A DNA stretch of 32,453 nucleotides from a virus. Below the pieces are notes generated by a model, which saw only the letters and a program-made list of their open reading frames with translations, made no database searches and was not told the DNA's origin. The number at the start of each line of letters is the position of its first letter. Within the stretch, counting starts at the first letter, position 1. A program made the position numbers and the translations under genes. The stretch lies in the IMG/VR virus record IMGVR_UViG_3300046168_000004, positions 1 through 32,453 of that record; one strand, written 5' to 3'. Below are positions 23,796 through 30,939 of the stretch, piece after piece.

Positions 23796-24377
23796 ATGGA
23801 TATTTTAGGTATAAATAGTAGTGCTGATAATGTTTTTATTAAACATAGCAGTGCAGATAAGTGTTGGATGATTGGAGATGAAATACATGAGGATATAGTG
23901 CATATTCTTGTTGATCCTTCAACTATTCAAACGGGGTGGGGTACATATGATGGAGGTTATAATTTTGTCTGGGACGATAAACCAGGCGTTTCTAAAGGAC
24001 AACCTGCATCTGATTATAAAAGAGCATTTAGTGTTTGGATATTTTCAAAAGAGCATGGGCCTAAAATTTGGCGAAGACATACATGGGGAGAAGGTCAAGG
24101 ATTTAATAATCTATGCTCTACTTTCTGGAATGATATAAAAGCTAATGAAGGCAAGGTTGTACACGTTAAATATACTGGATCAACTGTAGAAAAATTTAAG
24201 GTTGGACAATCTGCTATACCAAACTTTGAGTTTGTGAAATGGACAGATAAACCAGCTGAATTTGAAACATATGATATGGATATGCCAATGGAGCAAGCAA
24301 TAGCTGAAGCTAATGAGGCTTTTGATTTCAGTGAAACTAAAGCTAAAACTATAACTGAAGACGACTTACCTTTCTAA
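23796..24377 (+). CDS. Single-stranded DNA-binding protein
   Basis: The 193-residue protein is preceded by one of the strongest SD sites of the genome (AAAGGAGG). It is rich in aromatic residues (GWGTYDGGYNFVW, IWRRHTWGEGQGFNN) and strands as expected for an OB-fold ssDNA binder. The C-terminus is acidic and ends EDDLPF, matching the tip of bacterial SSB (DDDIPF) that recruits host repair and replication proteins. It lies directly before primase-helicase. It does not look like standard SSB in the core, so the fold is inferred, but the tail is seen. Confidence 0.75.
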   Translation: MDILGINSSADNVFIKHSSADKCWMIGDEIHEDIVHILVDPSTIQTGWGTYDGGYNFVWDDKPGVSKGQPASDYKRAFSVWIFSKEHGPKIWRRHTWGEGQGFNNLCSTFWNDIKANEGKVVHVKYTGSTVEKFKVGQSAIPNFEFVKWTDKPAEFETYDMDMPMEQAIAEANEAFDFSETKAKTITEDDLPF

Positions 24378-26207
24378 ATGAACAACGAAGTTAACTTTGT
24401 ACAGTTAGCTCCGCAAATCGGTAAGCAGTTACTTGGTAATCCTACAAAGGAAAGTAGTAATGAAATAAGATGGGGCACTAATGGAAGTTGGTGCCTTGAT
24501 CTTGAGACAGGATTATTTTTTAGCTTTGAATTAGATGAGGGTGGTGGAGTTATATGGTTAATAGATCACTTTAACCAAAATAGAAATGATATATTAAAAA
24601 TGTATAGTCCTGAAATAAAAGAAGAGAAAAAGACATACAAAAAATATACATATATACAAATGCAAGAATTAGCAAAACAAGCTGATTTTATTTTAAAGTA
24701 CACTAACACTTTTGTTGTAATGAGGTTTCCTGAAAAGCATTACATAAAGCAGAAGTATGCACCTTTTTATAAGGAAGGAGATAATTGGTATTTAAAAAGG
24801 CCTGATGGATTAATGCCTATTTATTATAAAGATGCTGAAGGATCTGTTGTAATAAGCGAAGGAGAAAAAGCTACGATTGGTTGCAATCAACTTTATGATG
24901 GACCAACAGCGACATGGCATGGCGGAGTTAATAGTTGGAAAAAAGCTGATTGGAGTCCAATATTTAATAAAAGCATAATTATATGGCCTGATAACGATGA
25001 TGCTGGTTTTAAATGTGCTGAAGAGCTAGGTAGATATTTAACAGAGAATAATTGCTCTGTACAAATAGCAAAAATACCAGAATCTTTTAATGAAAAAGAT
25101 GACTTATATGATGCTTATAAAAGAGGTGACTATAATAAAGAAACTTTTAAGCAATATATAGAATCTTCTGTTTCAAAACCACAAAAACCATCATTAGTAT
25201 TAAGAAAAATATCTGATTTGATCTCTAATATACAAGAGCCAGAATGGATTATTGAAGATATTATGGAAAAAGATTCTGTTATAGATATATATGGTGCTCC
25301 TAAAAGTGGTAAATCATTTATTGCAATTGATATGGCTTTATGTTCTTCTTTAGGTATACCTTGGCAAGATCATAAAACAGAACAAACACCTATTATTTAT
25401 TTAGCAGGTGAGGGTCAAAGAGGTATTGCAAGACGTGTGCAAGCATGGGAACATTACTATGGACACGATTTATATAACGCTAAGATGTTTGTATCAGATA
25501 GAGGCGTAAGGTTTTTAGACGAAAAAGATCATCAAAACTTAATTAATCATATACATCAAATTGCTAATGAGTTTGGGGATATTGGCTGTTTATATGTAGA
25601 CACGCTAGCTCGTAATTTTGGTGCTGGAAACGAAAATAGTACTGAAGATATGAATAAATTTATTGAACGAGTGGACCATCTAAAGTCAGAGTTTAGTTGT
25701 TGTATAGCTTTAATACATCATACAGGGCATAGTAGTTCGGGAAGAGCACGTGGCTCCTCTGTGCTTCCTGCGGCTGTAGATGCAGAATTTGCTGTAAAAA
25801 GACCTAAAGACGAGGGTGAAGAAATGAAGGTAGAGTTTACACAAACATTAATAAAAGATGGTAAACCTATGGGACCTAAATATTTTAAGTTTAAAGAGAT
25901 AGATTTAGTTAATTATCCTGGAATGACTTCAGGAGTACTAGTTAAAACTGAGTATGACATATTTAAAGAAGAAGATTCTAAAATAGATGAAACTATTGCA
26001 GTTATTGCAGAAATACAAGAAGAGAGAGCTAAATTAGATAATGTGGACCCTATATCAATTTGGGTAACTCAGAAAGAGATTATTAATGCGTCAGATTTAA
26101 AAGATAGCACAGTTAAACAGCGTGTAAAAAGGTTAAAAGAAGCTGGGAAGATTTATTATGAACAAGGTAAAGGTTATCAAGCTAAAAAGTATGATGTTAT
26201 TGATTAG
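24378..26207 (+). CDS. Primase-helicase (TOPRIM + RepA-like AAA ATPase)
   Basis: The 609-residue protein joins two activities. The N-terminal third is primase-like without a zinc finger (GLFFSFELDEGGGVIWLIDH), and a TOPRIM-type site: Glu161/Glu163 in ISEGEKATIG and Asp205/Asp208 in IWPDNDDAGF. Residues about 290-520 are an AAA_25/RepA helicase: Walker A GAPKSGKS (306-313), Walker B LYVDTL (Asp408), ALIHHTGHSSSGRARGSS with sensor and arginine residues. A C-terminal winged helix (VTQKEIINASDLKDSTVKQR) may bind the iterons that begin at this gene's stop codon. No polymerase is present, so it should load a host replisome. Confidence 0.88.
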   Translation: MNNEVNFVQLAPQIGKQLLGNPTKESSNEIRWGTNGSWCLDLETGLFFSFELDEGGGVIWLIDHFNQNRNDILKMYSPEIKEEKKTYKKYTYIQMQELAKQADFILKYTNTFVVMRFPEKHYIKQKYAPFYKEGDNWYLKRPDGLMPIYYKDAEGSVVISEGEKATIGCNQLYDGPTATWHGGVNSWKKADWSPIFNKSIIIWPDNDDAGFKCAEELGRYLTENNCSVQIAKIPESFNEKDDLYDAYKRGDYNKETFKQYIESSVSKPQKPSLVLRKISDLISNIQEPEWIIEDIMEKDSVIDIYGAPKSGKSFIAIDMALCSSLGIPWQDHKTEQTPIIYLAGEGQRGIARRVQAWEHYYGHDLYNAKMFVSDRGVRFLDEKDHQNLINHIHQIANEFGDIGCLYVDTLARNFGAGNENSTEDMNKFIERVDHLKSEFSCCIALIHHTGHSSSGRARGSSVLPAAVDAEFAVKRPKDEGEEMKVEFTQTLIKDGKPMGPKYFKFKEIDLVNYPGMTSGVLVKTEYDIFKEEDSKIDETIAVIAEIQEERAKLDNVDPISIWVTQKEIINASDLKDSTVKQRVKRLKEAGKIYYEQGKGYQAKKYDVID

Positions 26208-26370
26208 TTACATAATTAGTTACATTAGTTACATCTTAGTTACATTTATCATGCAACTTAAAGAGAAAAAGAGTTACATTTTGAGTTACATACATATACC
26301 TTTAGGTATATGTAACTCATGTAACCTTTTAATAAGTTAATTTTTAATAAAATGTAACCTTTAATGTAAC
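26207..26370 (+). repeat. Iteron array, candidate replication origin
   Basis: Ten copies of one 7-mer fill this gap. Six forward GTTACAT start at 26207, 26219, 26228, 26239, 26273 and 26285; four inverted ATGTAAC start at 26310, 26319, 26352 and 26364. Many sit 9-12 bases apart, about one helical turn. The two arms face each other across a hairpin (26283-26318). An AT-rich stretch at 26331-26355 could melt. Position straight after the primase-helicase gene is that of an iteron origin. An operator array is the alternative. Base composition predicts only a handful of such 7-mers in the whole genome. Confidence 0.8.
26283..26318 (+). repeat. Central hairpin of the iteron array
   Basis: ACATATACC (26292-26300) and GGTATATGT (26305-26313) form a perfect 9-bp stem with loop TTTA. 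GAGTT (26283-26287) and AACTC (26314-26318) extend it by 5 bp past a 4-base bulge. It is the centre of symmetry between the forward and inverted iterons. There is no T-run, so a terminator is unlikely. Confidence 0.7.
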
Positions 26371-26371
26371 T

Positions 26372-26893
26372 ATGAACAATAAAGATAAAAAAATAAAAGA
26401 ATTAGAAAAGATCGAAAAAAATAGATTGTTGAATGAATCATTACAAGAATTAAATAAAGTTAGATCGAGAATAACGTTAGAATGGGGCAATAAACGCATA
26501 ATGCAAATAATTAGTCCTGAATTATTATTAAGATTTAAAAGAGCTAAAAGAAAATATGATACAGAGCATTATAAAACAGATAACATAGAACTTAATAAAA
26601 TGATGGTTAGAGCTTACGAAGCCTTAATAGATGATGCTATTAATAGAGGTTATAGTAAATTATTACCAGGTTTTATATATACAGTTCACCCTAAAACACA
26701 AGATAATATTATTATTTGTATAAATGAAGATGATGTACCAGTTGCATTTAATAAATACCAATCTAAGGAAGATGTTATAATTTTTCACATTAGTGAAATA
26801 TTAATATCAATGAAAGAAGATTTTATAAAATTAAAAAAACAAACACACAAAATAGGTGGAGTGATATCAAGATATGAAAGTATCAATACATAA
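26372..26893 (+). CDS. Unknown protein, 173 residues
   Basis: The start follows the last iteron by one base, so a leader longer than the repeat cannot exist. The N-terminal 35 residues are a charged helix (DKKIKELEKIEKNRLLNESL). The middle (ISPELLLRFKRAKRKYDTEH, then MMVRAYEALIDDAINRGYSK) is helical, and the C-terminal half has strands (IYTVHPKTQDNIIICINEDD). Layout recalls a family seen in alphaproteobacterial phages upstream of terminase genes, but I cannot name it. Confidence 0.6.
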   Translation: MNNKDKKIKELEKIEKNRLLNESLQELNKVRSRITLEWGNKRIMQIISPELLLRFKRAKRKYDTEHYKTDNIELNKMMVRAYEALIDDAINRGYSKLLPGFIYTVHPKTQDNIIICINEDDVPVAFNKYQSKEDVIIFHISEILISMKEDFIKLKKQTHKIGGVISRYESINT

Positions 26894-27464
26894 TAATATA
26901 AAAAGTTTTAATAAAGACTTACAAAAGTTTAAAAAAGTTGATATACCTGATATTACCCGAATAGCTTTAAATGATACTGCTAAACGTGTACAAGAGTTAG
27001 AAATAATGTCTATGAAGAAATCTTTTAATAAACCACGTCCTCAAACTTTAAAGAGCATTTATGTGATTTTTGCTAAGAAAAATAAACTTAAAGCTACTAT
27101 AACTTTTAGAGATTGGGCCCAAGATTTTATAAACAGAAACATTGTTGGAGGAGTTAGGCCAGTTAAGAATACAGCAGTACCTACACCTAACGCAAAACTA
27201 AATCAATACGGGAACATACCAGGAAGAAAATCAGGTGTTATAAAAGGTAAACAGTTTAAAGCAACAATTAAAGGTACTTATGGAGTTTTTGAACCTAAAA
27301 AAGACGGCTTAAAAATAATACATAGGTTCGTTACAAACCCACAATATAGACCCATATTTCCTTTTTATAGAGTAGCTGTTAAGGCTGCTAATTATATTGC
27401 GCCATTAAAGTTTGAAAAGGTTGCTAATTACTATATAAAGAAAGCCGGATATAAATCAAAATGA
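26874..27464 (+). CDS. gpZ-like minor tail/tail completion candidate
   Basis: The 196-residue, very basic protein has an N-terminal helix (IPDITRIALNDTAKRVQELE), then MKKSFNKPRPQTLKSIYVIF and a Gly/Lys-rich middle (IPGRKSGVIKGKQFKATIKG), and ends with a helix (FYRVAVKAANYIAPLKFEKV). This resembles lambda gpZ-type tail completion proteins (helix with A-L-N, basic core, C-terminal helix). It is not in the tail operon but between replication and terminase genes. It overlaps both neighbours. Family call is tentative. Confidence 0.45.
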   Translation: MKVSIHNNIKSFNKDLQKFKKVDIPDITRIALNDTAKRVQELEIMSMKKSFNKPRPQTLKSIYVIFAKKNKLKATITFRDWAQDFINRNIVGGVRPVKNTAVPTPNAKLNQYGNIPGRKSGVIKGKQFKATIKGTYGVFEPKKDGLKIIHRFVTNPQYRPIFPFYRVAVKAANYIAPLKFEKVANYYIKKAGYKSK

Positions 27465-30525: not shown

Positions 30526-30537
30526 AAAAGTTACATC

Positions 30538-30939
30538 ATGATAGGTGATATTAAAAATTTAAACCGGTATTACAAAATATACCGGTTTATTACTAAAGCA
30601 AGTGATGAAGATAAAATGTCTTATTTGCAATTTAGAGCTAATTTTATACAAGAAGAGTTAGATGAATTATTTGCAGCAATTGATAATAAAGAGTCAGACG
30701 AAGTAGTAGATGCTTTTATTGATATTATAGTGATTGCTTTAGGATCTTTAGATGCATTTGATGTAGATATTAAAAAAGCATGGAAACGTGTGCATTATGC
30801 AAATATGCAAAAAGAAATTGGTGTAAAAGATACAAGACCAAATCCTTTAGGATTACCTGATCTTGTTAAACCCAAAAACTGGCAAGCGCCACAGCATTTT
30901 GATAATGTTGGTAAATTAGATTTTTTAGATAAGGAGTAA
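30538..30939 (+). CDS. MazG-like nucleotide pyrophosphohydrolase
   Basis: The 133-residue all-alpha enzyme has the metal-binding set of the MazG/dCTPase fold: Glu39-Glu40-x-x-Glu43 (FIQEELDELFAAI), then Glu55-x-x-Asp58 and Asp62 (EVVDAFIDIIVIAL). The C-terminal LVKPKNWQAPQH is typical of phage forms. T4 gp56 dCTPase has the same general fold, so here it may turn dCTP (and dUTP) into the monophosphates used by the next enzymes and keep plain dC out of phage DNA. The substrate is inferred from neighbours. A GTTACAT word like the iterons lies just before its ATG (30530-30536). Confidence 0.78.
   Translation: MIGDIKNLNRYYKIYRFITKASDEDKMSYLQFRANFIQEELDELFAAIDNKESDEVVDAFIDIIVIALGSLDAFDVDIKKAWKRVHYANMQKEIGVKDTRPNPLGLPDLVKPKNWQAPQHFDNVGKLDFLDKE

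Follow-up and report, generated by a model that had tools for sequence, protein, structure and literature searches.

We identified, directly after the primase-helicase gene of a marine phage, an array of a seven-nucleotide word set in two facing groups around a central hairpin. This array is a real, conserved element for which an origin function is likely, and it is probably the replication origin of the phage, read by the helicase encoded just upstream. The DNA analysed, called the window below, is the IMG/VR record IMGVR_UViG_3300046168_000004 (32,453 bases). It encodes a GpA-type terminase; among named phages, the closest relatives of this protein come from the Roseobacter phages of the CRP-8xx group, at ~52% identity.

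Layout of the array

The window contains 19 copies of the word GTTACAT against 6.05 expected, a count that none of 100 shuffles reached, and 10 of these copies are packed into the 164 bp from 26207 to 26370. The first-pass annotation had described six GTTACAT words facing four ATGTAAC words across a hairpin in 164 bases, and word and hairpin searches found this to be exact. The start-to-start steps (12, 9, 11, 34 and 12 in the left arm; 9, 33 and 12 in the right arm) likewise confirm the spacings it gave, with gaps of 34 and 33 at matching places on the two arms. With random orientations, the chance of all six forward words preceding all four reverse ones is 1/210. The array occupies the whole intergenic gap: its 5′ end lies inside the helicase stop codon (TAGTTACAT) and its 3′ end is one base short of the ATG at 26372 of a 173-residue ORF, co-directional with the helicase gene. 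The central hairpin has the arms TACATATACCT and AGGTATATGTA; an alternative register pairs TGAGTTACATA with TATGTAACTCA and leaves a bulge of 4 nt. The features are as follows.

24378-26207, plus strand: primase-helicase, with primase-like N-terminus, RepA-type RecA-fold helicase (AAA_25) and C-terminal winged helix (Pfam, model)
25983-26183, plus strand: C-terminal winged-helix domain, residues ~536-602, proposed iteron binder (predicted models)
26207-26370, no strand: whole iteron array, proposed replication origin (word positions, hairpin, conservation in relatives)
26207-26213, plus strand: iteron 1, GTTACAT, overlapping the helicase stop codon (word search, as for all iterons)
26219-26225, plus strand: iteron 2
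26228-26234, plus strand: iteron 3
26239-26245, plus strand: iteron 4
26246-26272, no strand: left gap, 74% A+T, containing AACTT that mirrors AAGTT of the right gap
26273-26279, plus strand: iteron 5, left pair of the core
26285-26291, plus strand: iteron 6, left pair of the core
26282-26319, no strand: central hairpin or dyad with a 4-nt left bulge (hairpin search; stem pairs co-vary)
26299-26306, no strand: hairpin apex CCTTTAGG, of the CCTWWAGG type common to lineages
26310-26316, minus strand: iteron 7, right pair of the core
26319-26325, minus strand: iteron 8, right pair of the core
26326-26351, no strand: right gap, 92% A+T, possible melting stretch
26352-26358, minus strand: iteron 9
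26364-26370, minus strand: iteron 10, one base ahead of the next start codon

A lone GTTACAT at 30530-30536 stops one base before an ATG at 30538, as iteron 10 does before 26372; this may be chance.

The helicase and its neighbours

In Pfam, the helicase matches AAA_25 (3e-35), with HTH_24 (residues 564-592) and Toprim_2 both just below the cut-off; the TOPRIM match of the primase-like N-terminal part is thus weak, and DUF927 and D5 are absent. Searching the sequence against solved structures gave no match. The predicted model resembles T7 gp4, Twinkle and RSF1010 RepA (1g8y, TMt 0.77, rmsd 2.9), a likeness of fold only. The C-terminus is modelled as three helices followed by two strands (helix-helix-helix-wing) and superposes on winged helices of the MntR/DtxR type with rmsd of 1.1-2.6, a common fold that proves no function.

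Just upstream, a 193-aa ORF (23796-24377) ends in DDLPF, like the tail of single-strand DNA-binding proteins; it has no Pfam or PHROG match, and the CRP phages carry an annotated ssDNA-binding protein at the equivalent position. On the other side, a gene matching a minor tail protein family (phrog_1924, 26874-27464) directly follows the 173-residue ORF, beside the replication genes.

Conservation in close relatives

A search of IMG/VR with the helicase returned 30 loci, 62-92% identical. Array and hairpin are kept in 25/25 of the close relatives with a complete downstream stretch. Nineteen arrays were aligned, and per-column conservation, calculated from 17 of these rows, was 97% for the words, 94% for the hairpin between the inner words and 76% for the remainder. 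Three outer stem pairs change jointly on both sides, and 98.7% of the stem cells pair, where shuffles gave 93.5% and slid controls 11-52%. Because the positions concerned are inside the inner words or next to them, the co-variation shows a kept palindrome and not, by itself, a folded strand. The elements AACTT and AAGTT of the two gaps (26246-26272 and 26326-26351) also change on both sides in several relatives, for example to AACTTC/GAAGT in L019 and GGTAT/ATACC in L025; as a candidate further stem they were rejected, the alignment giving no clean pairs. The DNA of the array had no match in phage records, and the 173-residue neighbour had none in IMG/VR.

The word and the C-terminal domain change together

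The helicase's C-terminal winged helix is the likely binder of the array, as suggested by sequence comparison and the predicted models. CRP-821 and CRP-831 carry the word GTATAA, while CRP-823, CRP-811 and L115 carry CTACAA. Until about residue 600, every 60-residue block of the CRP-821 and CRP-823 helicases shows 93-100% identity, whereas the C-terminal ~105 residues are ~70% identical between the two word groups and ~93% within them; 27 of the 29 fixed differences between the groups fall in this last part. For the DNA of CRP-821 and CRP-823, identity is 95-99% until ~450 nt before the helicase stop, 64-83% over the last ~375 nt of the gene and 49-57% over the first 150 nt of the array, with 93% regained by +223. 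In helicase pairs with an 80-90% identical ATPase, which are not independent of one another, identity of the C-terminus is 70% with a common word and 54% with different words.

At least four separate word changes were found between close helicases. L160 has GTAACA at 11 places and GTACCA at one, while L162-L164 have GTACCA at nearly all matching places; their ATPases are 97-100% identical and their C-termini ~90%. The single GTACCA of L160, 15 bases past the helicase stop, is apparently a relic, a snapshot of a concerted word change. GTCGGA and GTAGGA are mixed in the first 150 bases past the helicase stop of L155 and L158, possibly a change in progress.

An origin linked to the helicase, and binding by the winged helix, which the first-pass annotation listed as a check, thus gain indirect support from this co-variation, the natural cassette swaps and the winged-helix model. 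The 173-residue neighbour, named there as the alternative, is an unlikely binder since other genes replace it in lineages that keep the array.

The array plan in the wider helicase family

We surveyed 158 loci with related RepA-type helicases, drawn from helicase searches and hence not an unbiased sample, for a 7-mer cluster above all 40 shuffles per locus from -60 to +300 of the helicase stop. Such a cluster was present in 134/158; the words were picked after the fact and the loci are related by descent, so these counts are not independent events. At least five copies of a word were found at 118 of the 158 loci, compared with 8 of 2115 control windows. Among loci in bacterial genomes, which are prophages or relatives from Alpha-, Gamma- and Deltaproteobacteria, Planctomycetes, Synergistales and others, 41/75 reached this number of copies (controls, 1/614). 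The same plan with another word follows helicases only 20-30% identical to that of the window; lineage words include GGTACA (Idiomarinaceae phage 1N2-2), GGTTCA (Alteromonas PB15), GTATAA (Roseobacter CRP-831) and GCTGGAA (CRP-406). No array was found after the distant helicases of KayaCho, GB2A, 19E33.1 and 1.210.O, and no clear one after those of L100/101 or L049-L054, the latter a sublineage 45% identical to the helicase of the window.

Constant across lineages is a core of two words, a hairpin with the apex CCTWWAGG, and two words reversed. The outer words vary in number and direction: four forward in the family of the window, two forward and four reversed in that of CRP-831. A requirement for mirror symmetry of the whole 164 bp was therefore dropped, as four outer words face the other way in CRP-type arrays. 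The two-sided symmetry had been called unusual at first; this holds for the full mirror symmetry, which is special to the subfamily of the window, but not for the two-sided layout, which occurs in SaPI/PICI and P4 crr and, in the form of the 2+2 core, is standard across this helicase family.

The apex CCTWWAGG was present in 42 of 107 distinct palindromes in the array zones, compared with 1 of 386 palindromes from other parts of these loci. More broadly, CT(N2-3)AG apices stand beside 61 different words, with a palindrome finder that did not require the apex. For 54 words, the helicase side has the longer of the two spacers between word and apex, and for 3 words it has the shorter one; in the window the spacer is 12 on that side and 8 on the other. 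Small DNA hairpins with CTNNAG loops have an unusual stability, and extrusion would be in keeping with this.

The shared apex and the natural word-domain swaps are the strongest new points. It is possible, at somewhat less than even odds, that a single origin design is common to phages and prophages from many bacterial groups, with helicase-iteron cassettes being swapped while the CCTWWAGG apex stays fixed; the apex might then be an undescribed general signal for strand opening or loading of RepA-type helicases.

Comparison with known systems

The array likely belongs to a known class (SaPI/PICI, P4 and pRN1-like origins) and the variant is likely new within the accessible literature, from which subscription journals mostly fall outside, so that a prior description is possible. 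The paper on the roseophage family (PMC12629253) makes no mention of iterons, repeats or hairpins.

In SaPI Rep and SCCmec Cch2, the C-terminal domain of the helicase is the origin binder (PMC7581432). The PICI rep-ori has two iteron sets and replicates a plasmid (PMC6092414), and the same paper credits PICIs with this two-sided layout and "no other known bacterial replicon". The window resembles these systems in its origin directly 3′ of the helicase gene, its short iterons and its C-terminal candidate binder (PMC7581432, PMC6092414). Two iteron sets flank a centre in SaPI/PICI as well, although in the window a hairpin takes the place of a plain A+T-rich centre. Their helicases are of the Primase_Cterm/D5 or DUF927 type, unlike the AAA_25 RepA-type RecA fold here, and a CCTWWAGG hairpin was not found described for SaPI/PICI or SCCmec Cch2.

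The primase of P4 alpha is of the TOPRIM type; its helicase belongs to SF3 and thus differs from the RecA-fold AAA_25 helicase of the window. P4 crr lies just 3′ of alpha and has two iterons facing two, but crr and ori lie apart; a CTWWAG hairpin apex was looked for in crr and was absent. Similar to the window's protein, alpha unites a bacterial-type primase, a helicase and a DNA-binding C-terminus in a single polypeptide (PMC4234260).

RSF1010 oriV has iterons and two opposed ssi hairpins used for priming. Its RepA is a close solved structure for the helicase domain, but three separate polypeptides (RepA, the iteron binder RepC and the primase RepB′) initiate at oriV (PMC4234260). In the window, the primase-like part and the winged helix are instead inside the helicase protein, and one central hairpin was found in the array. 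In pRN1, a stem-loop 3′ of the replication gene is required for replication and the protein ends in a winged helix (PMC4234260); the differences are the lack of iterons, a much larger loop and an SF3 helicase with an archaeal-type primase. By analogy, the system of the window may work like the SaPI/PICI, P4 and pRN1 origins, with a helicase of the RSF1010 RepA type and a hairpin undescribed for those.

Proposed function and alternatives

Sequence comparison, predicted models and the analogies above make it quite probable that the helicase binds the array and that replication starts there. In the mechanism we propose, the C-terminal winged helix would bind the repeated word in double-stranded DNA, and the facing word pairs would assemble helicase subunits to either side of the hairpin. 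Opening or extrusion of the palindrome would then offer single strand for loading of the RepA-type hexamer, most simply one per strand, with forks leaving both ways; outer words and A+T-rich gaps would add binding and melting. Two-way loading is plausible from the symmetry, with somewhat better than even chances, and extrusion of the hairpin strands may occur but falls a little short of that. GC skew, suggested earlier as a check for the origin, was uninformative: it has no turn anywhere in the window, the array included, and in the circular CRP-831 and CRP-811 it tracks gene direction only.

It is rather unlikely, although worth serious weight, that the hairpin of such an origin is a priming and not a loading site, in which case replication may start one-way. 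The ssi hairpins of RSF1010 serve priming, and an apex common to lineages with entirely different words is what the site of a conserved enzyme would look like. The fixed template motif at which NrS-1 PrimPol initiates (PMC8718748) also counts for this reading. However, TOPRIM-type helicases have the apex, and so does the CRP-831 type, for which a TOPRIM match is lacking; this argues against one phage primase as its reader, although a host primase could possibly read it.

An operator for the downstream genes, bound by the winged helix of the helicase or by another phage regulator and with an incidental or terminator hairpin, would fit the place of the array, which separates two genes of one direction and reaches as far as the second start codon. 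We consider this improbable, as lineages that keep the array differ in the gene that follows it, no terminator-like or promoter-like site was found inside it, and an operator does not need a facing core with a fixed apex.

Finally, action as RNA (a folded helicase transcript, an attenuator or messenger protection) is very improbable: the strand folds much better than shuffles (z -5.8 as RNA, -6.4 as DNA) and stem pairs co-vary, but any facing inverted words must fold well, the words conserve sequence and not only pairing, direct repeats cannot pair mutually, the words change together with a domain of DNA-binding type, and Rfam gave a single match, to a microRNA precursor (24.9 bits, cut-off 100), which we took as chance.

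Implications and occurrence on plasmids and satellites

Few environmental phages have a known origin. If the array is the origin, that of a large group could be named from sequence alone, as a word array with a CCTWWAGG hairpin after the helicase, and the two-sided layout, said to be limited to PICIs among bacterial replicons (PMC6092414), would extend to phages with RepA-type helicases. Close pairs with different words (CRP-821/823 and L160/L164) are ready tests of how winged helix and site change jointly with function retained, and the common apex raises the question of what opens the DNA for RepA-type helicases.

Among the 4 plasmid matches examined out of 22, none had the helicase and array as its only replicon; the array carriers look like phages or satellites, and one match is without an array. 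On the E. coli plasmid NZ_CP031350 (L289), a PICI-like island carries AlpA, a RepA-type helicase, a capsid gene and AAGTGA words 3′ of the helicase, so that satellites may use this kind of array origin, too. L262 and L263 are both found on one Synergistaceae contig of 14.6 kb (JAFUXM010000003), which points to two copies of the helicase with a CGATGCA array in common.
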